A stretch of 64,000 bases of DNA, from positions 1-64,000 of the forward strand of contig JAENWG010000001.1 in NCBI GenBank assembly GCA_016650175.1. Reading direction: 5' to 3'. Both the position numbers and the translations under genes were made by a program. This DNA comes from Peptostreptococcaceae bacterium (GTDB taxonomy: Bacteria > Bacillota > Clostridia > Peptostreptococcales > Anaerovoracaceae). Below the pieces are notes generated by a model. It saw only the letters and a list, made by a program, of their open reading frames with translations, made no database searches and was not told the DNA's origin. Of the stretch, positions 43,533 to 53,488 are shown piece by piece; positions within the stretch are counted from its first letter, which is position 1, and each line of letters begins with the position of its first letter.

Positions 43533-43854
43533 GGTTCTATAATAAATGTTGGGGTAACTGGTTAAATAGTTATTTCAACATTTTTAAGTTTTTGCAAAAA
43601 AAGATAAAAAGCATATTATGATTAGTTCTAAGCATATGGTGACAGCTTATTTATGTTTAAGGGCTTAAAGTGGTAGTCTATAAGTAAGATTTAAGCACAA
43701 ATTATGTGTTTTTTGTGAATATCTATTGACATATTAATAATAGGACTATATTATATAAGGTTATTAAAATTAAGATATATTATAAACTTAATACCCATTT
43801 TTAATAAAATGTGCTTTACACATAGAATAGGAGATTTGTATGAATACAAATCAA
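43533..43854 (+). repeat. Long direct repeat copy A1: ISL3-type end plus aspD promoter and start
   Basis: This 322-base stretch, from GGTTCTATAATAAATGTTGG to the first codons of aspD, is repeated with few differences at 51971-52289. Its first 70 or so bases match the left end of the ISL3-family remnant at 52866. The rest carries a promoter and ribosome-binding site. No other gene lies in the gap between the tetR-type gene and aspD. Confidence 0.85.
43726..43754 (+). promoter_or_regulatory. Promoter of aspD-aspT
   Basis: TTGACA (43726-43731) and TATTAT (43749-43754) have a 17-base spacer. The leader of about 80 bases ends in AGGAGA seven bases before the aspD ATG. Confidence 0.8.
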
Positions 43855-45438
43855 TACGAAAAAAACTTAGAACAACTAGGTGCATTTGAAATTGCATCAA
43901 AAATGCTCAAGTTAGCGAAAAACAACGAAAATAACAATAGTTATCTGAATGCGGGACGTGGTAATCCAAATTGGATTAATACCCAGGCAAGACTTGCATT
44001 TCCAAGATTTATGGAATTTGGTGTTAAGGAGTCTGAAAGTACAATGCATGAAGACAATCTAGCCGGATACACTACACTGGAGGGAATTGCTGGCAGATTT
44101 GATGCTACTTTGGATTTAAGCAAGACAGAAGACGTTTTTATAAAGGAATCTCTAGATTATGCTGTTAATACCTTGGGTATTGACAGAGATGCCTTAGTGA
44201 AAGAGTTCACGGATGCAATAATCGGAAACAACTATCCGGTACCTTCCCGTTGCTTAGTTAACACAGAAAAGATAATCAATGCATATCTTCAAGATACCCT
44301 TTATAACGGTGTTCCTTTGGCAGATTCCACGCAGGTATTTCCTACAGAAGGCGGAACGGCGGCCATTTGTTATATTTTTAATTCTCTTAAAAAGAATAAT
44401 TTAATTAAAGAGGGGGATAAGATTGCCATTAACACGCCTATTTTCACCCCATATATACAAATCCCTAAGTTGACTACTTATGAAATGGTTGAAGTAAATT
44501 TGGTAGCGAGTGAAGAAAACAATTGGGAGGTTCCAGTGGATGCACTGGATGTTTTGGAAGACGAGAGTATTAAAGCATTCTTTTTAGTGAACCCATCTAA
44601 TCCAGGATCTCGAGCACTAGATAGTAGACTTCTAAAAAGAATTAAAAAAATCTGTGAAAAACGTAAGGATTTGATTATTATTACGGATGATGTTTATGGG
44701 ACATTTTCAGAGGATTTTCAAACTGTTTATTCCGTTGCCCCATATAATACCTTGCTTGTGTATTCATACTCTAAACTTTATGGATGTACGGGATGGCGCC
44801 TTGGATGCATAGCTATGAACAAAAAGAATGTTTTTGATGATTTGATTGCTCATTTGCCTGAAGAAAAATTAAAACTTCTTGATGAAGACTATGGCATCGT
44901 GACTTTAGAACCACGTACGCTTCCTTTTATTGACCGTTTAACTGCAGATAGTCGTTCAATAGGGCTTTATCATACTTCAGGGTTGTCTACACCGCAGCAG
45001 GCAATGATTGCTTTGTTTTCTTTGACACATTTGGTTTGTAATGACGGTGATAAATATATTGAATCCACTAAGAAAATTGTGGCTAAGCGTTATCATTTGC
45101 TCTTTGAAGAATTAGGAATCAAAGAGGATAACACTCGTGAAAATGCTAAGTACTATTCGCTCATTGATATTTATACTATAGCGGCACGTTTGTATGGTAA
45201 GGATTTGGAAATATATATGCGGAAAAATTTTGAAGAGATTGACTTCTTGTTGAATCTTGCCAAAGAAGAAGGCGTTGTCATTATGGAAGGTGTTGGATTT
45301 GCGGCACCAGCAGGAGTATTGAGAGTTTCTCATGCAAACCTAACAGATGATGCTTATATTAAGATTGCTAAACGCATAAAAGTATTATTAAAAGAATATA
45401 ATGATAAAATGAAGTCATCATTAGAATTGAGGGATTGA
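43840..45438 (+). CDS. aspD: Aspartate 4-decarboxylase / aspartate aminotransferase (AspD)
   Basis: A large (532 aa) fold-type I PLP enzyme. YLNAGRGNPNWINTQARLAF near the N-terminus, NPSNPGSRALDSRLL in the aspartate-binding region and the PLP lysine in YSYSKLYGCTGWRLGC distinguish AspD from ordinary aminotransferases. It decarboxylates L-aspartate to L-alanine and CO2, consuming a cytosolic proton. With the aspT antiporter in the same operon, as described for lactic acid bacteria such as Tetragenococcus, it forms a proton-motive metabolic cycle. AGGAGA precedes the ATG. It lies between ISL3-type remnants, suggesting acquisition by transfer. Confidence 0.95.
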   Translation: MNTNQYEKNLEQLGAFEIASKMLKLAKNNENNNSYLNAGRGNPNWINTQARLAFPRFMEFGVKESESTMHEDNLAGYTTLEGIAGRFDATLDLSKTEDVFIKESLDYAVNTLGIDRDALVKEFTDAIIGNNYPVPSRCLVNTEKIINAYLQDTLYNGVPLADSTQVFPTEGGTAAICYIFNSLKKNNLIKEGDKIAINTPIFTPYIQIPKLTTYEMVEVNLVASEENNWEVPVDALDVLEDESIKAFFLVNPSNPGSRALDSRLLKRIKKICEKRKDLIIITDDVYGTFSEDFQTVYSVAPYNTLLVYSYSKLYGCTGWRLGCIAMNKKNVFDDLIAHLPEEKLKLLDEDYGIVTLEPRTLPFIDRLTADSRSIGLYHTSGLSTPQQAMIALFSLTHLVCNDGDKYIESTKKIVAKRYHLLFEELGIKEDNTRENAKYYSLIDIYTIAARLYGKDLEIYMRKNFEEIDFLLNLAKEEGVVIMEGVGFAAPAGVLRVSHANLTDDAYIKIAKRIKVLLKEYNDKMKSSLELRD

Positions 45439-45440
45439 TT

Positions 45441-47105
45441 ATGTTAAATACATTTGGTAATTTCTTGATTGATAATGTAACAATTTCAATTTTTATTTGT
45501 TTGGCCCTTGGCTATGCCATTGGAAAACTTAGGATAAAATCTTTTAGCTTGGGTGCAACTGTGGGAACTCTGATTATTGGTTTAGTTGTTGGACAGGCTG
45601 GTGTATTTGATATCTCACCAGTTATAAAAACTATTTTCTTCAGTCTTTTCATTTTTGTTATTGGCTACGAGGTTGGTCCAGCCTTTGTTGACAGCTTGAA
45701 GAAATCGGGGATCAAGCTAGTTATTCATTCTGTCTTTTTCGCAGGATGCTCTCTAGCAGTTGCTCTGATATTGTTTAAGTCATTTGGCGTGAGCCCAGGC
45801 GAATCGGCTGGTATTGTAGCAGGAGCACTTACTCAATCCGCTGTTATTGGCACTGCTGCTTCTTCAATTATGAAACTTACAGGTTTGAGCCAAGCTGCTA
45901 AAATTGCCATGCAAACGCAGGTTGCTGTGGCGTATGCCTTAACCTATATTTTTGGAACAATAGGCCTTGTTATATTTCTTAAGAATATTGCGCCGAAGCT
46001 TCTAGGTATAGATTTAAAAGAAGCAACAAAGAAAAAAATTGAAAGTATCAATTTTAAAGATGATTCTTCAAAGAAGACGGTTATTAGTACAATAAAAATG
46101 AGGGCCTTTCTTATTAAAGAGAACTCGGTTTATATTGATAAGTCTGTTTCGAGTATTGAGGAGAAGTATAACAATAAATTAACCTTCGAAAGAATATTTC
46201 GAGGAGATAAAGAAATAGAGGTATCTCAGGATTTTCAATTTAAAGAAGATGATGTTGTTACCCTTATTGGTGATTTGACGAATATTGTTGCTTTTGAGCA
46301 AGGCCATCTTCAGGAAATGGCAGAAAATAAGTATAGAAATATTATTTTACAACAAAAGGATATTATCTTAACAAAGGTCTTTGAGCAATCTCATATTGAT
46401 GATTGTAGTATCAATAATATTATAATTGCATCTGCCTTGAGGAATGGAAAGCCTTTGGGCGATATCCACGATATGAAGAAGGGCGATACAATACGTCTTG
46501 TTGGACCAATGAATGCTTTAAGCAAGGTCGCTAAGGAATTTGGTTATGCAAGAAACACTGGTATTGATACTGATGTAAGTTTTATGTCAGTGGGCATCAT
46601 TCTTGGTTTACTATTGGGAATGCTAACGCTGACTGTTTTAAGTATTCCTATCACCCTTGGCGCAGGAGGAGGAGCATTATTTCTAGGGTTATTCTTTGGA
46701 TGGTATCAGTCAAAACATCCAAATATTGGTCATATTTCTCCATCAACTCGTTGGTTCTTAAAAAGTGTAGGTTTGAATACGTTTATTGCAATCGTTGGAA
46801 TCACTGCAGGAGCCAGCTTTGTTGGAGCGGTTCAATCCATGGGATACATGGTACTGATTATGGGAGCAGTCCTCTCAATCGTGCCACATGTTGTTTCCCT
46901 TTATTTTGGGAAATACGTTCTTAAATTAGATGCAATTGATATTATTGGAGGACAATGTGGAGCTGGTACAATCACTGCCGCCTTAAATGCGGTCACTGAT
47001 GAGACAGGTAGTAGTATTTTCGCATTAAGTTACACGCCGGGATATGCAGTCGGCAACGTTTTACTGACTGTCATGGGACCATTGGTAATAGCCTTAATGA
47101 TTTGA
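45441..47105 (+). CDS. aspT: Aspartate-alanine antiporter AspT
   Basis: A membrane exchanger of the AAEx family. About five N-terminal helices (from FLIDNVTISIFICLALGYAIGKL) and five or more C-terminal helices flank a hydrophilic centre with two TrkA-C-like domains (residues about 215-360). ALTQSAVIGTAASSIMKL and QCGAGTITAALNAVTDETGSSIF are the paired transport motifs. It swaps external aspartate for internal alanine, generating a membrane potential when coupled to AspD. The track's TTG start at 45435 is replaced by ATG 45441 with GAGGG eight bases upstream, two bases past the aspD stop. Confidence 0.95.
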   Translation: MLNTFGNFLIDNVTISIFICLALGYAIGKLRIKSFSLGATVGTLIIGLVVGQAGVFDISPVIKTIFFSLFIFVIGYEVGPAFVDSLKKSGIKLVIHSVFFAGCSLAVALILFKSFGVSPGESAGIVAGALTQSAVIGTAASSIMKLTGLSQAAKIAMQTQVAVAYALTYIFGTIGLVIFLKNIAPKLLGIDLKEATKKKIESINFKDDSSKKTVISTIKMRAFLIKENSVYIDKSVSSIEEKYNNKLTFERIFRGDKEIEVSQDFQFKEDDVVTLIGDLTNIVAFEQGHLQEMAENKYRNIILQQKDIILTKVFEQSHIDDCSINNIIIASALRNGKPLGDIHDMKKGDTIRLVGPMNALSKVAKEFGYARNTGIDTDVSFMSVGIILGLLLGMLTLTVLSIPITLGAGGGALFLGLFFGWYQSKHPNIGHISPSTRWFLKSVGLNTFIAIVGITAGASFVGAVQSMGYMVLIMGAVLSIVPHVVSLYFGKYVLKLDAIDIIGGQCGAGTITAALNAVTDETGSSIFALSYTPGYAVGNVLLTVMGPLVIALMI

Positions 47106-47174: not shown

Positions 47175-47520
47175 GGTTTCTATAATACATGTTGAGGTAA
47201 CTGGTTAAAAAGAACATAACATATACTCTACTACTGCAATGAAATATATCAATTTAATATCATTTTCAAAGCCTAAGTTGCCAACGCAACTATCAATAGA
47301 TTGATATCGAGGAAATGCAGGAGCCAAAGGTTTCAATGTGTAATAACTGACCCTAAGAAGAAAAGGATATTAGATCTGCTACCAACTAGAAACTTAGATA
47401 AACTTAAAGAATGCTTTATGACATGCGACGACAGAAACAACGTTGAAATTGTAGTAATGAATATGAGTTCCCTGTTTAAATGAGTAGTAAATATCTATTT
47501 CTCAAAAGCAGATATCGTAG
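47175..47520 (+). mobile_element. Decayed ISL3-family element (end and transposase fragment)
   Basis: It begins with GGTTTCTATAATACATGTTG, a variant of the ISL3-type terminus seen at 43533 and 51971. It then jumps, through an internal deletion, into transposase sequence. Residues such as CRSQRFQCVITDPKKKRILDLL in the short ORF 47301-47483 match the remnant at 52895, and a TGA interrupts the frame before them. No right end was found. It accounts for most of the gap between aspT and the OPT gene. A CTTAAG-containing inverted repeat at about 47132-47165 may be the aspT terminator but lacks a T-run. Confidence 0.75.
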
Positions 47521-47588
47521 CAGCTAAGTATCATGTGATGATACAAGATAGTAGTATAATTAATTGGAAATATAAAAGGAGATATATT

Positions 47589-49508
47589 ATGGATAAAAAA
47601 TTATCTAAAAATGCATATGGTGGCGTACCCGGTAAAGACTACGTTCCATACATTTCCGGTGGTTCTGATTCTGGTGGGAATTGGTTCGTATTAATACTTG
47701 GTATTCTTTTGGCTACACTATTCGCGGCATCCACTGCCTATTCAGGTATGAAATCAGGCCTTACGGTTGCGGCAGGTATACCTGGTGCCATAATAGGTTC
47801 AGCATTTATAGCAGCGTTTGCTAAACAAAAAGGAATTCTAGGAAAAAACCTAGTTCAAGGTATGTCAAGCGGTGGAGAAGCTGTTGCTAGTGGCATGATA
47901 TTCGTTTTGCCAGCAGTTTTGTTAATAGGTGCAGAAGTTTCTTTCATACAAAGTTTTGCTGTAGGTGTAGCTGGAGTTCTATTTGGCATAGGAATAGCTG
48001 CTATCGTTCACAATTACTTAATTGTTCAAGAGCACGGTGAATTAATGTATCCTGAATCAATGGCTATATCTGAAACCCTTGTTGCTTCAGAAGGTGCTAG
48101 AGAGTCAGTAATTAACATGGGAATAGGATTTGGAATAGGTGGTGTTCTAACTGTCTTGACTAGTCCGTTTTTAAATGTAGCTAACAATGTTATAAGTTAT
48201 GTAAATGAAACTTTTTTTAAGTTCAAATTTCAAGTTGAGGGCAGTCCTCTATTGTTAGGTATAGGGTTCATAGTTGGGATGAAGGTTTCTTTAACTATGT
48301 TTGTTGGGTCTATATTAGCTAACTTTGCTATTTTACCTTTGATAGGTTATTTCTCTGATCTTGGTGAAGGCGAGGCAACTGTATGGGATGATCCTAGTGT
48401 TGCAATAAACCTTATGCAAGTTTCAGATATATCTGGTAGTTATGTAAAGTATATTGGTGCTGGTATGATGCTTTCTGGTGGTCTAATCGGTGCTATTAAG
48501 CTTATGCCTACTATAGTTGTATCCATAAGAAAAACCTTCAATGCTAAATCTTCAAACAGTGATGAGAGTTCATCTTTTGGAAACTTAATATTAATAGGTG
48601 GCATAATAATATGTTTTGTGGCAGGTTTCTTAATATCTGGTGGGAATATACTAATGGCAATAATTGCTTCTATTTTATCATTAATCTTAGCATTTTTATT
48701 TGTCATAGTTTCTGGTCGTTTGACTGGCGTTATTGGCTGTTCAAACCTACCCGTTTCTGGTATGACAATAGCTTCCTTAGTTCTTGTAACATTATTATTT
48801 GTTATAATGGGATGGAAAAGTCCTGAAAATAACAAATCTTTACTTTTATTTGGTACATTTATTGTTACTGCAATATCTATTGGTGGTGGTTACAGTCAGT
48901 CGCAAAAAGTTGGTTTCATAATAGGGGGAAACAAAAATGAAATGCAAAAGTACTTTGGTATATCGGCCATAGTTGGTGTTGCCGTAGTTGTTGGTACTAT
49001 AATGGTGCTTTCTAGCAAACTTGCAATGACTGGCGATAATGTTCCATTTGCACTGCCTCAAGCTAATTTAATGTCGACGTTAACTTCTGGCATACTTTCA
49101 GGTGCGTTACCTTGGGTTATGATAATTACTGGTGCTGTAATGGGAGTTGTTATATTCTTATTAAAGCTTCCTGTAATGACAGTGGCTATAGGATTTTACC
49201 TACCAATATCTACAACTTCTATAATATTAATAGGCGCTTTAATTCGTTTATTTGTAGAAAAAACTTCTAAGTCTCCAGCAGAAAAAGATCTTAAAGTTTC
49301 AAATGGTATAAGTTTATCTGCGGGACTTGTTGCTGGTGGCTCTATACTAGGACTTATAGGAATAATACTTCATGTATCTGGTGTTTTAAAAGAAAACGCA
49401 CTAAGTGGATTTGCAGCTTCTAACGGAATGGCATACATTATGTTAGCAGTTCTTGTAGTCGCTACTATAATCCCTATTTTGAGGAGTAAAGTAAAAGATG
49501 CTAAATAA
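47589..49508 (+). CDS. OPT-family oligopeptide transporter
   Basis: A polytopic membrane protein of about 640 residues with some 14-16 hydrophobic segments. Typical OPT blocks are LAASTAYSGMKSG-like TLFAASTAYSGMKSGLTVAAGIPGAIIGSA and HGELMYPESMAISETLVASEGA, together with GVIGCSNLPVSGMTIASL and IGGGYSQSQKVGFIIGGNKNEMQ. It should import small peptides, driven by protons. The track start at 47535 is in the decayed element; ATG 47589 with AAGGAGATATATT upstream is preferred. It overlaps the next gene by 11 bases and precedes a dipeptidase, forming a peptide-use module. Confidence 0.93.
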   Translation: MDKKLSKNAYGGVPGKDYVPYISGGSDSGGNWFVLILGILLATLFAASTAYSGMKSGLTVAAGIPGAIIGSAFIAAFAKQKGILGKNLVQGMSSGGEAVASGMIFVLPAVLLIGAEVSFIQSFAVGVAGVLFGIGIAAIVHNYLIVQEHGELMYPESMAISETLVASEGARESVINMGIGFGIGGVLTVLTSPFLNVANNVISYVNETFFKFKFQVEGSPLLLGIGFIVGMKVSLTMFVGSILANFAILPLIGYFSDLGEGEATVWDDPSVAINLMQVSDISGSYVKYIGAGMMLSGGLIGAIKLMPTIVVSIRKTFNAKSSNSDESSSFGNLILIGGIIICFVAGFLISGGNILMAIIASILSLILAFLFVIVSGRLTGVIGCSNLPVSGMTIASLVLVTLLFVIMGWKSPENNKSLLLFGTFIVTAISIGGGYSQSQKVGFIIGGNKNEMQKYFGISAIVGVAVVVGTIMVLSSKLAMTGDNVPFALPQANLMSTLTSGILSGALPWVMIITGAVMGVVIFLLKLPVMTVAIGFYLPISTTSIILIGALIRLFVEKTSKSPAEKDLKVSNGISLSAGLVAGGSILGLIGIILHVSGVLKENALSGFAASNGMAYIMLAVLVVATIIPILRSKVKDAK

Positions 49509-49845
49509 CAACGAAGATGTTTTAAGTATAATATTTAGAGTATCTGACAATTTGGAGTATGAAGTAGATAAAAACAACATTGTGACTATACTTGAAAAAC
49601 AAGATCATAAGGTCCAAGAGTTTTTTAGAAAACTAAAATTCAAAATTCCAGAGTATAAAAAAACTTCTTTAGATGAATATGGAAGCTGTGTATTTTTACA
49701 AATAGATGGCAAGAAAACCATAAAAGATATTGGAGAAAGTCTAGAAGAAAAGTATGGTGATAAAGTTCATCCACTTTATGAAAGGATATTGTTGTTCTTA
49801 AACCATATCGATGTTAATTGTCACTATATTGAAAAAACAAATTAG
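49498..49845 (+). CDS. PqqD-like (RRE-fold) small protein
   Basis: A 115-residue protein. Residues SIIFRVSDNLEYEVDKNNIVTILEKQDHKVQEFFRKLKFKIPEYKKTSLDEYGSCVFLQIDGKKTIKDIGESLEEKYGD match the PqqD/RiPP recognition element pattern: a beta-hairpin wing, then the D-x-x-G-x-x-V-x-x-x-I-D-G-like strand and helices. In RiPP systems PqqD domains bind leader peptides. Here no radical SAM or precursor gene is seen, and the gene overlaps the OPT transporter by 11 bases. A peptide-binding partner of the transporter is a plausible inference. GAGGAG lies 11 bases before the ATG. Confidence 0.75.
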   Translation: MLNNNEDVLSIIFRVSDNLEYEVDKNNIVTILEKQDHKVQEFFRKLKFKIPEYKKTSLDEYGSCVFLQIDGKKTIKDIGESLEEKYGDKVHPLYERILLFLNHIDVNCHYIEKTN

Positions 49846-49938
49846 CAATAAGAAAATTTTACAAGAAATATATATTAAATATTTAAACAGTAGTGATTAG
49901 ATTACCTTTTAATGAGGCGATCAAAAGGAGAAAAAGTT

Positions 49939-51330
49939 ATGGAAATTAACGAAAAAATTGATAGCATGAAAGATGAATTAATAAGTGCTACTCAAAAAGT
50001 ATTAAAAATAAAAAGTGTACAAGATGATCCAAAACCAGGTATGCCGTTTGGAGAGGGAGTTTCTAATACACTAGATGCTGCTCTTGAAATTTCAAAGAAT
50101 CTTGGATTTAAAACTGTAAATGTTGATGGTTATGTTGGTTATGCAGAATATGGACAAGGAGAGGATTATGTTGGAATTCTTGGACATTTAGATGTTGTTC
50201 CTGAAGGGACTGGATGGAAGTATCCACCTTATGCTGCAGAAATTCATGATGGAAAATTATATGCAAGAGGATCTCTAGATGATAAAGGACCTATAATGGC
50301 ATCATTGTTTGGACTTAAAGCTATAATGGACTTAAAACTACCATTAACAAAAAAGGTTAGAGTTATTTTTGGAACAAATGAAGAAACTGGTTCTGCTGAA
50401 ATAGCACATTACTTAAAGAAAGAAAAATCACCTGTATCAGGATTTACACCTGATGCTGAATATCCAATAATCTATGCTGAAAAGGGACTTACTATTTTTG
50501 ATATAGTAAAAGAACTAAAGGTTAAACCTAATGGGCCAATAAGTATTAAATACATTAAAGGTGGGCTGAGACCTAACATGGTACCAGATTACACAGAAGC
50601 AGGAATCTTGACTGATGATAAGCCAGCGCTTATCAAGTCAGTGAAGGAATATGCTAAGAAAACAGGGTTTGATTTAAACGCTACAGATAACGGCAAAATG
50701 GTCATACTCAAATCAGTAGGTGTAGGTGCACATGGAAGTCTTCCTCAATTAGGCAAGAATGCTATTATGCAATTGTTTGATTTTTTAGGGAGCTTCAAAT
50801 TAGGAAAATGTGATATAGCTGAATTCATAGAATTTCTTAACAAAAACGTAGGATTCGATGTATATGGAGCTAAATTTGGAGTTGGACTTGAAGATAAGGA
50901 CTCTGGAAAACTTTCATTTAATGTTGGAGTAATCGACATGAACCAAGATAAGGTTACTATGACATTAAATTTAAGATATCCAGTAACATTTAAACTAGAT
51001 GACATGATGAAGCCTTTTAAGGAAAGAATTAAAGGTACAGGAATAACAATCGAAAATCTAGAACATCAAGCTCCTTTATTCTTTCCAAAAGATAATCCAT
51101 TAATAAAGACTTTGCAAAAGGTATATAAAGAGCAAACAGGCAAGGAACCTACATTACTTGCAATTGGTGGTGGTACTTATGCCAAAGAGATGGATAATAT
51201 AGTAGCATTTGGGCCAATATTCCCAGGGGAAGTAGACCTTGATCATCAAGTAAATGAGTATATTGAAGTTGAGAGCTTAGTAAAGAATGCAAAAATATAT
51301 GCTCATGCAATATATGAACTTGCAAAATAA
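49939..51330 (+). CDS. Sapep/PepV-type metallo-dipeptidase (second copy)
   Basis: An M20 dipeptidase of 463 residues. GHLDVVPEGTGWKYPPY, RGSLDDKGPIMAS, IFGTNEETGSAEIAHYL and AIGGGTYAKEMDNIVAFG supply metal and catalytic residues. It differs widely from the copy at 21687-23117, including a shorter N-terminus without the long insertion VYLPEGEVYPFGED, so it is not a recent duplicate. The ATG at 49939 with AAGGAG eight bases upstream is preferred over the track's 49912. With the OPT transporter it would cleave imported dipeptides to amino acids. Confidence 0.92.
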   Translation: MEINEKIDSMKDELISATQKVLKIKSVQDDPKPGMPFGEGVSNTLDAALEISKNLGFKTVNVDGYVGYAEYGQGEDYVGILGHLDVVPEGTGWKYPPYAAEIHDGKLYARGSLDDKGPIMASLFGLKAIMDLKLPLTKKVRVIFGTNEETGSAEIAHYLKKEKSPVSGFTPDAEYPIIYAEKGLTIFDIVKELKVKPNGPISIKYIKGGLRPNMVPDYTEAGILTDDKPALIKSVKEYAKKTGFDLNATDNGKMVILKSVGVGAHGSLPQLGKNAIMQLFDFLGSFKLGKCDIAEFIEFLNKNVGFDVYGAKFGVGLEDKDSGKLSFNVGVIDMNQDKVTMTLNLRYPVTFKLDDMMKPFKERIKGTGITIENLEHQAPLFFPKDNPLIKTLQKVYKEQTGKEPTLLAIGGGTYAKEMDNIVAFGPIFPGEVDLDHQVNEYIEVESLVKNAKIYAHAIYELAK

Positions 51331-51365: not shown

Positions 51366-51611
51366 CATAGAGAAACAGTTTTTCTGGAACTAGGCCATCT
51401 GGCAGTATGGGACCTACTAATTGTGAAAACTTCAGCTGGTACATTTACCTATGAAGTAAGAGGTACTCATATCTTCGATAAGGATGACAAGACGGTGATA
51501 GTACCAACAGAACATGCAGTCTTAACGGTTACCACCTGCTATTCATTCAATTATGTTGGTCTGGCTCCAAAAAAGTATATTGTATCTGCAGATCTAGTAG
51601 TGGATAAATGA
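51366..51611 (+). pseudogene. Sortase C-terminal fragment
   Basis: The frame reads HRETVFLELGHLAVWDLLIV and continues GTFTYEVRGTHIFDKDDKTVIVPTEHAVLTVTTCYSFNYVGLAPKKYIVSADLV. This is the second half of a class C/D-type sortase, with the catalytic Cys in the TVTTC motif and the conserved His at the start (HRET). The usual arginine position reads KKYIV here. A TAG lies immediately upstream and the N-terminal half is absent, so the gene is broken. The ORF track shows only 51423-51611. A shorter second copy of the tail is at 52289-52394. Confidence 0.8.
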
Positions 51612-51735
51612 AAATATAATGGGCAGTGTTTCTGCCTATTACCGATCTTTGAAATTAGTTGTGATATCTTTATAGTTATAAGATTCCGTACTATTCTGCA
51701 TTAATTGAATATCATCATTAAGAAAGGAGGTTACC

Positions 51736-51810
51736 ATGCGTGGAGGTTTGGGTATAGTAGGAGTAATAGTAGTTGTTCTTATAGTCCTTTTTGTTCTGAA
51801 AATAATTTAG
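51736..51810 (+). CDS. 24-residue hydrophobic peptide, copy 1
   Basis: MRGGLGIVGVIVVVLIVLFV and a four-residue KII-type end make up a single membrane-spanning peptide. A strong AAAGGAGG site lies five bases before the ATG. The identical peptide is encoded at 52519-52593. Conservation of the frame and ribosome-binding site in both copies supports a real gene. Its function is unknown; it was presumably part of the cell-surface sortase locus. Confidence 0.5.
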   Translation: MRGGLGIVGVIVVVLIVLFVLKII

Positions 51811-51844
51811 CAAAAAAATGATATGATGATATTACTGATGCAAC

Positions 51845-51967
51845 AAAGTAGAAAGAAAAGAACAGCCAAGTATGGTAGGCGCAACGTTTATTAAATATGC
51901 AGCCTATATTATAATCCTGGTAGTAGTATTATATTTTTTAGTAAAGTATATTATTCCTATGATATAA
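51845..51967 (+). pseudogene. Headless remnant of the 57-residue membrane peptide gene
   Basis: Codons from KVERKEQPSMVGATFIKYAAY to the TAA match the C-terminal two thirds of the intact gene at 52677-52850. A TGA lies just upstream in frame, and the ribosome-binding site and start have been deleted. Confidence 0.7.
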
Positions 51968-51970
51968 TTC

Positions 51971-52289
51971 GGTTCTATAATAAATGTTGGGGTAACTGGT
52001 TAAATAGTTATTTCAACATTTTTAAGTTTTTGCAAAAAAAGATAAAAAGCATATTATGAATACTAGGCATAGGGTGGCGGATTTTTATGTTTAAGGGCTT
52101 AAAGTAGTAGTCTATAAGTAAGATTTCAGTACAAATTATGTGTTTTTTGTGAATATCTATTGACAAATCAATAACAGGAGTATAATATAAATGGTTATCT
52201 TAAAATTTAAGATATACTATAAGTTAATATCCATTTTAATAGACTGTGCTTTGCATATAGAATAGGAGATTTGTATGAATACAAAGCAA
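51971..52289 (+). repeat. Long direct repeat copy A2: ISL3-type end plus aspD promoter copy
   Basis: Near-identical to 43533-43854, starting at the same GGTTCTATAATAAATG terminus and ending after the first five codons of aspD (ATG AAT ACA AAG CAA). The promoter region is retained with TTGACA and a nearby TATAAT, but the spacing differs slightly from A1. Downstream of the start the sequence switches to the sortase tail. Confidence 0.85.
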
Positions 52290-52394
52290 ACAGAACATGC
52301 AGTCTTAACGGTTACCATCTGCTATTCATTCAATTATGTTTGTCTGGCTTCAGTAAGGTATATTGTATCTGCAGATCTAGTAGTAGATAAATGA
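52275..52394 (+). CDS. Chimeric mini-ORF: aspD start fused to sortase tail (39 aa)
   Basis: The frame from ATG at 52275 reads MNTKQ (aspD start) directly into TEHAVLTVTICYSFNYV and the sortase C-terminus, ending at the sortase stop. It keeps the AGGAGA ribosome-binding site and a promoter-like region from repeat A2, so it could be expressed. The catalytic motif reads TIC instead of TTC, and most of the fold is missing, so no sortase activity is expected. It is likely a recombination by-product rather than a functional gene. Confidence 0.4.
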   Translation: MNTKQTEHAVLTVTICYSFNYVCLASVRYIVSADLVVDK

Positions 52395-52518
52395 AAATAT
52401 AATGGGCAGTGTTTCTGCCTATTACCGATCTTTGAAATTAGTTGTGATATATTTATAGTTATAAGATACCGTACTATTCTGGATTAATTGAATATTATCA
52501 TTAAGAAAGGAGTTTGCC

Positions 52519-52593
52519 ATGCGTGGAGGTTTGGGTATAGTAGGAGTAATAGTAGTTGTTCTTATAGTCCTTTTTGTTCTGAAAATAATTTAG
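52519..52593 (+). CDS. 24-residue hydrophobic peptide, copy 2
   Basis: Encodes the same peptide as 51736-51810 (MRGGLGIVGV and a Val/Leu/Ile helix). The upstream site is AAAGGAG six bases before the ATG. The next gene starts 83 bases downstream. Function unknown. Confidence 0.5.
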   Translation: MRGGLGIVGVIVVVLIVLFVLKII

Positions 52594-52676: not shown

Positions 52677-52850
52677 ATGGATTCAAATAATAACGAAAGA
52701 GATAACAATGTAGACATTGATAGTAAAAAAGTAGACAGAAAAGAACAGCCAAGTATGGTAGGCGCAACGTTTATTAAATATGCAGCCTATATTATAATCC
52801 TGGTAGTAGTATTATATTTTTTAGTAAAGTATATTATTCCTATGATATAA
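52677..52850 (+). CDS. 57-residue single-pass membrane protein
   Basis: Too short for the track. MDSNNNERDNNVDIDSKKVD forms a polar, acidic N-terminus, followed by VGATFIKYAAY and one hydrophobic helix (IIILVVVLYFLVKYIIP). AAGGAGG lies eight bases before the ATG, a convincing site. The C-terminal part is preserved in the B1 remnant. It was probably a companion of the lost sortase or of the 24-residue peptide. I do not recognise a family. Confidence 0.6.
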   Translation: MDSNNNERDNNVDIDSKKVDRKEQPSMVGATFIKYAAYIIILVVVLYFLVKYIIPMI

Positions 52851-52865
52851 TTCTAAAAACTTAGA

Positions 52866-53488
52866 CTGTTAATTAATGTTGGGGTAACCAGTAAATGGTT
52901 ATTCCAGCATTTTTAAGTTTTTGCAAAAAAAGAATGTGCATGTGCCCTACCTTTGATATAATCGAATCTGTAATTTTTCGATTCAATGGATCAAGAAATA
53001 TTAAAGCTATTGCTAAGGAACATAACATTTCATCTACTACTGCAATGAAATATGTCAATTTATTATCATTTCCAAAACCCAAGCTACCAAAGCAACTATC
53101 AATAGATGAATATCAAGGAAATGCAGGAGGCCAAAGATTTCAATGTATAATAACTAATCCTAGGAAGAAAAGGATGTTAGATCTGCTACTAGCTAGAAAC
53201 TCGGATAAACTTAAAGAATATTTTATGTCATGCGAAGACAGTAACACGTTGAAGTTGTAGTAATAAATATGAGTTCTCTATTTAAAGTAGTAGTAAATAC
53301 ATGTTTTCCAAAAGCAGATATCGTAGCAGATAATGAGACAAGGTATATGGGCTTTTGAAAATGTCTGGAAAAGCGACCAGAATAAATTTTCAATAAAGGT
53401 ACGCATAAAAAGAGCTTGGGCTCTTTTTATCAGCTCAAGCTCAATTATCAATTTTTTGATTGGTTACCCCACTATTTGACACAAAACC
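52866..53488 (+). mobile_element. ISL3-family element with internal deletion (both ends present)
   Basis: The left terminus (TAATGTTGGGGTAACC) and the right terminus (GGTTACCCCACTATTTGACAC at 53462-53488) are imperfect inverted repeats sharing GTGGGGTAAC-type sequence, as in ISL3 elements. Between them lies only about 620 bases, against roughly 1.3-1.5 kb expected, so a large part of the transposase is missing. This element defines the ends recognised as fragments at 43533, 47175 and 51971. Confidence 0.8.
52895..53260 (+). pseudogene. ISL3-family transposase, truncated
   Basis: The 121-residue frame has a helix-turn-helix (FNGSRNIKAIAKEHNISSTTAMKYVN) and the catalytic-core opening LSIDEYQGNAGGQRFQCIITNPRKKRMLDLL, whose SIDE motif carries the first acidic residue of the DDE domain. 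The frame breaks at 53258. Later pieces such as VVVINMSSLFKVVVNTCFPKADIVAD and WAFENVWKSDQNKFS are visible in other frames with a deletion between them. The enzyme cannot be active. Confidence 0.8.

Follow-up and report, generated by a model that had tools for sequence, protein, structure and literature searches.

Bacterial members of the OPT family (TIGR00733) are oligopeptide transporters, and PF03169, the Pfam family to which they belong, also covers YSL-type metal-chelate transporters. Transporters paired with an M20 dipeptidase (PepV or PepD) link import to the subsequent cytosolic hydrolysis of dipeptides. In P. gingivalis, an opt mutant was shown to have reduced uptake of several dipeptides (PMC8048996). 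The PqqD/RRE fold has so far been known for holding peptides in RiPP synthesis, where they bind in the cleft of helix 3 and strand 3. Proteins with this fold have been surveyed by RRE-Finder, which reported thousands of discrete RRE matches without co-occurring lasso genes (PMC7470986). Within the open-access literature (a scope that leaves most subscription papers outside), we found no published account of an OPT-PqqD module, no paper that brings PqqD together with an OPT family oligopeptide transporter, and no description of an accessory subunit for such a transporter in bacteria; the word "oligopeptide" is absent from the RRE-Finder papers. An earlier note on the locus described below had called it a new context for a PqqD domain, and the literature in this scope fits that view.

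The locus lies in a 64,000-nucleotide stretch of a Peptostreptococcaceae genome (contig JAENWG010000001.1; hereafter, the window) and consists of three intact genes co-oriented on the + strand. The first (47589..49508) is preceded by a Shine-Dalgarno sequence, AAAGGAG, ahead of its ATG at 47589 and encodes an OPT-family oligopeptide transporter of the long (~640 aa) subfamily, 639 aa in length (PF03169, 259 bits; TIGR00733, 202.6 bits against a cut-off of 182.5 bits). The second (49498..49845), which shares its first 11 bases with the end of the OPT gene, encodes a PqqD/RRE-like protein of 115 aa. The third (49939..51330) encodes a PepV-type M20 dipeptidase of 463 aa (NF005591, 607 bits against a cut-off of 435 bits; TIGR01887, 537 bits), homologous to the solved PepV 1lfw and to S. 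aureus SACOL1801 (3khx). Its likely start is the ATG at 49939, behind AAAAGGAG; the ORF listing begins at 49912, an in-frame ATG further upstream. No terminator-like sites were found between the three genes. ORF coordinates and profile scores confirmed the gene positions and the 11-base overlap given in the earlier note.

The PqqD-like protein scored 25.0 bits against PF05402 (cut-off 23.4 bits), and three relatives scored 26.7–40.6 bits; its score against the profile of the true PQQ-pathway PqqD, TIGR03859, was 19.7 bits, below the equivalog cut-off of 46 bits. An AlphaFold (AF2) model built from 88 family sequences reached a pLDDT of 88 and a pTM of 0.78 and supersedes a single-sequence model of the protein (pLDDT 50). 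It shows strands at residues 20–23, 29–34 and 53–57, followed by helices at 60–67, 75–90 and 93–106, which is the three-strands-then-three-helices order of the PqqD/RRE fold. A Foldseek search against the PDB returned as its top match TbiB1 with leader peptide, a lasso RRE (probability 1.00, TM 0.78 by target length, best E 7e-3), with the other RRE proteins TruD, TigE, ThcOx and PqqD 3g2b lower in the list. Because RREs head the PDB matches of the model, the predicted fold of the protein is that of an RRE. The earlier note had made this assignment from the sequence and had named a different fold as the result that would speak against it; structure prediction returned the RRE fold.

The order of strands and helices is common to the window family and to described PqqD/RRE proteins (PF05402; TbiB1, PqqD 3g2b). 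Unlike these, the family carries an additional helix at residues 37–45, which separates the last strand of the RRE sheet from the one before it (window 49606..49632, + strand), seen in the secondary structure of the model and corresponding to the conserved segment NKGFYNKIAQKFF of relatives. Also unlike them, it conserves an N-terminal NYLDxIP motif and an FGxxAEPLYxR motif; GFYNKIAQKFF is a further family motif, and the strongest family positions are G71, R96, P51, G62, G87, D70 and P92. The RRE-Finder authors proposed that RREs derive from DNA-binding regulators and found helix-turn-helix proteins among their false positives (PMC7470986). Given this shared ancestry with DNA-binding winged helices, the protein might regulate transcription of the uptake operon as a small winged-helix factor. 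We consider this quite improbable, as the top fold matches are peptide-binding RREs, the net charge of the family averages only +1.6 (−4 for the window protein), and the sharing of a reading frame with an enzyme, described below, would be unusual for a regulator.

The genomic surroundings also differ from those of described RREs, in that the family is tied to a transporter and was seen without a RiPP enzyme or precursor. Profile scans of the window neighbours found neither a radical SAM enzyme nor any other RiPP enzyme, and the radical SAM matches listed for the window genome are all on other contigs. Across ten genomes, none of the radical SAM matches listed lies within 15 kb of the PqqD-like gene, the closest of those listed, in G071 and G357, being at a distance of ~16 kb. 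The annotated neighbours (ORFs of at least 60 aa) include no RiPP-modifying enzyme or precursor; those that recur are the OPT and dipeptidase genes and a gene for a ~122-aa protein that seems to have a single membrane helix. The absence of a nearby RiPP enzyme, noted earlier for the window, was thus borne out, and the radical SAM or precursor tie that would have argued otherwise was not seen among the window neighbours or in the ten genomes. A RiPP leader-binding protein whose modifying enzyme is encoded elsewhere, with the OPT importing or the dipeptidase trimming the RiPP, would accord with the PF05402 match, the RRE fold and the radical SAM genes present elsewhere in the same genomes. The 15-kb result for the matches listed in ten genomes and the identity of the recurrent neighbours make it very improbable. 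We rejected a RiPP origin on the ground that no enzyme was found among the neighbours scanned or, in the ten genomes, among the radical SAM matches listed within 15 kb.

We scanned one genome per species for relatives of the PqqD-like protein, confirmed 501 and analysed the neighbourhoods of the best 80. An OPT gene lies directly upstream on the same strand in 79 of these 80 relatives, which come from across Clostridia; in the remaining one, the gene begins 415 bases into its contig and the upstream side is cut by the contig end. The survey of OPT neighbours in Clostridia that the earlier note had proposed thus found the OPT-PqqD link conserved, and recurrence at this level excludes a chance adjacency. 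The gap between the two genes has a median of 2 nt; they touch or overlap in 34 of 78 loci, and in 11 of these 34 the overlap is exactly 11 nt. Phylum-wide, most strong PqqD-like matches are again found directly behind an OPT gene.

The pairing follows the OPT subfamily. An intact PqqD-like gene occurs in 28 of the 298 genomes of the window's taxonomic family, and all 28 encode a long (~640 aa) OPT. A long OPT is present in 34 of the 298; the PqqD-like gene was detected in 28/34 of these vs. 0/264 of the others (Fisher p 8e-34, with relatedness ignored). Among the 298 genomes, those with only a short (~550 aa) OPT contain no intact PqqD-like gene; one PqqD-like trace, broken by a stop, was found in G145. 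The window OPT, above the TIGR00733 cut-off like other bacterial OPTs, differs from them in having a dedicated small partner gene directly downstream. Within its taxonomic family, OPTs of ~550 aa are encoded without one. It is ~70% identical to the OPTs of G071, G165 and G193 and 92% identical to that of G560, and all of these have the same partner gene downstream. Presence of the partner changes 4 times on the OPT tree, compared with a mean of 30.6 after shuffling, and OPT and PqqD distances are correlated across 99 pairs (Mantel r 0.84, and 0.79 within the main clade). Taken as a two-gene unit, the OPT and PqqD-like genes very probably form a real functional pair.

Exceptions to the pairing were found in both directions. 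The PqqD-like gene lies away from an OPT in five genomes: in G382, G418, G662 and G470 it has other neighbours, and in G342 (L169 4108–8500) it follows genes for an OppA-like solute-binding protein and Opp-type ATPases. Judging by the G342 locus, the family may work with an ABC peptide importer as well. In G163 and G053, two of the 28 family genomes, the gene is convergent to the OPT gene and ~1.4 kb away from it, behind an enolase-family gene. G309 encodes a distant member of the PqqD family that is extended by a basic N-terminus (L177 4230–4661); it, too, is not encoded beside an OPT, and by eye its gene adjoins FtsX-like and ABC ATPase genes.

Conversely, the OPTs of G656, G422, G345, G384 and G417 have no adjacent PqqD-like partner. 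In G656, a 33-codon PqqD remnant directly follows the OPT gene, so the PqqD-like gene has been lost, at least in this genome. An adjacent partner is also absent from the OPT clade beside beta-lactamase-like and epimerase-like genes. In this sister long-OPT clade (L136, L138, L114, L122, L124, L132–L134), the transporter gene sits between a beta-lactamase-like serine hydrolase gene and an enolase-family gene that, by eye, resembles L-Ala-D/L-Glu epimerase; these neighbours suggest murein-peptide or dipeptide use. With several clades devoid of the PqqD-like gene, we rejected the notion that all long OPTs need the partner.

The window and G560, which is filed in another family, share 94.7% DNA identity over 47567–49853. 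This common block covers exactly the OPT and PqqD-like genes, and the dipeptidase genes beside it differ. Horizontal transfer between the two lineages is plausible; the G560 assembly is fragmented, 76% complete and 4% contaminated, and its OPT-PqqD contig, 10 kb in length, may be misbinned. Whether by transfer or through misbinning of G560, the OPT and PqqD-like genes behave as one unit.

The third member of the module is less constant. Proximity of an M20 dipeptidase was scored by a uniform tblastn test, in which some of the wider loci are short contigs. A PepD or PepV gene was found near 18 of the 20 OPT-PqqD loci of the window's family, near 9/9 loci when the window clade and the fusion genus are taken together, and near 31 of the 80 wider loci; the other 49 have no M20 gene in the stretch searched. 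The same test found no M20 dipeptidase near the short-OPT loci (0/20). The type of dipeptidase (PepD or PepV) and its side (upstream or downstream) vary, while the OPT-PqqD arrangement is fixed.

In two related genomes, G638 and G678, the PqqD domain and PepV are contained in one ORF of ~590 aa (PF05402 and PF01546) directly behind the OPT gene; the 11 other genomes searched from their family gave no match. Both ORFs retain a strong Shine-Dalgarno sequence and an ATG where PepV begins, from which the dipeptidase may additionally be produced on its own. With this internal start in both copies, we downgraded a clean PqqD-PepV gene fusion to a one-frame fusion. The OPT-PqqD-dipeptidase module proposed in the earlier note is matched by a recurrent link to a cytosolic dipeptidase that extends to shared reading frames. 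The reading given in that note is partly supported, in the fold, the lack of RiPP genes nearby and the links to OPT and dipeptidase; the roles in gating, delivery or sensing of peptides that it raised are conjectural. The module would share import and cytosolic hydrolysis of dipeptides with plain transporter-M20 pairs, to which it adds an RRE-like protein that can occupy the same frame as the dipeptidase.

We propose a conserved peptide-uptake module in which the long-type OPT would import short peptides and the PqqD-like protein, probably translationally coupled to it, would act as its dedicated cytosolic partner. Through its RRE fold, this partner could then dock the importer and the cytosolic M20 dipeptidase to each other: it would either bind the peptide as it enters or keep the dipeptidase at the transporter's inner face, and imported peptides would pass directly into hydrolysis. 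What is known of the OPT family favours peptides as the cargo, and so does the lowered dipeptide uptake of the opt mutant in P. gingivalis (PMC8048996). From the comparative evidence, we infer that the window-type OPT imports peptides, that the RRE-like protein lies on its cytosolic side, and that the parts touch each other and channel the peptide. This adaptor model is favoured by the nearly invariable OPT pairing, by the M20 dipeptidase often found nearby and by the one-frame PqqD-PepV fusions, and also by the confinement of the block common to the window and G560 to the OPT and PqqD-like genes and the PqqD remnant of G656. It is weakened by the 49/80 wider loci without an M20 gene, the possible production of free PepV from the fusions, the OPTs without a partner and the five genomes with the gene off the OPT. 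Overall, we give the adaptor model an even chance.

Its main rival is a pure gating subunit: the PqqD-like protein would belong to the OPT alone, adding a strand to a cytosolic loop or tail to gate or stabilise the transporter, and the dipeptidase would merely be co-regulated. A near-universal OPT pairing next to a dipeptidase found near only 31/80 wider loci is what such a subunit would produce, and the OPT-PqqD pair by itself is the block common to the window and G560. The one-frame fusion of PqqD with PepV sits poorly with it, and no tail peculiar to PqqD-bearing transporters was found among the termini compared. A special OPT tail as the docking site found no candidate in the N- and C-termini of 104 long OPTs, in which the short OPT start (FKPYxPADK or YEPYI) is of the same kind with and without the partner. 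We regard a purely regulatory subunit as unlikely. The breadth of PF03169 would also permit an OPT that carries metal-chelate complexes in the manner of YSL transporters, with the RRE-like protein handling the chelate or its peptide part. This is improbable: the recurrent neighbours are M20 dipeptidases, not metal genes, and the L-Ala-D/L-Glu-epimerase-like gene (by eye) adjoining the sister OPT clade also belongs to dipeptide metabolism.

The adaptor model has a bolder form, in which a protein of the RRE fold has taken on a task away from RiPP synthesis, as the dedicated accessory subunit of a secondary-active peptide importer: it would bind the transporter or the peptides entering through it and hand peptides to a docked dipeptidase. 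Such a transport metabolon, and with it a non-biosynthetic RRE function, is possible, with the balance tilted somewhat against it. The OPT-PqqD pairing, part of a module that is common among Clostridia of gut and rumen, suggests that bacterial peptide uptake has an accessory component not described so far. Should the PqqD-like protein act in uptake, nutrition would join the roles of the RRE fold, and a PF05402 match would not by itself identify a RiPP cluster; the OPT-linked family may be among the discrete non-lasso matches of RRE-Finder. The one-frame fusions and the remnants make the uptake idea directly testable.

The ~122-aa protein encoded between PqqD and PepD (L030 6362–6727 and equivalents) belongs to no Pfam family. 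Read by eye, it seems to carry a membrane helix at its N-terminus and may end in a winged helix; it occurs in 15/20 family loci and 21/80 wider loci and is absent from short-OPT loci.

In the window, genes for an aspartate 4-decarboxylase (43840–45438) and an aspartate:alanine antiporter (45435–47105) lie directly upstream of the module and represent an amino-acid energy pathway; in G560, a fragment of a related decarboxylase is found upstream. The three-gene module is flanked by two ISL3 transposase fragments in the same orientation (+ strand): a left one at 47209..47527 (PF01610), which is an 86% direct repeat of the right one at 53015..53333 (NF033550, in ORF 52895–53260). They resemble the remains of a composite transposon. 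Directly 3' of PepV, a sortase domain fragment was detected at 51423–51611 (PF04203, 36 bits), and the region downstream of PepV contains a duplication of several hundred bases at 96–98% identity, with the copies ~0.8–0.9 kb apart (51506–51805 and 52289–52588; 51842–51970 and 52725–52853).
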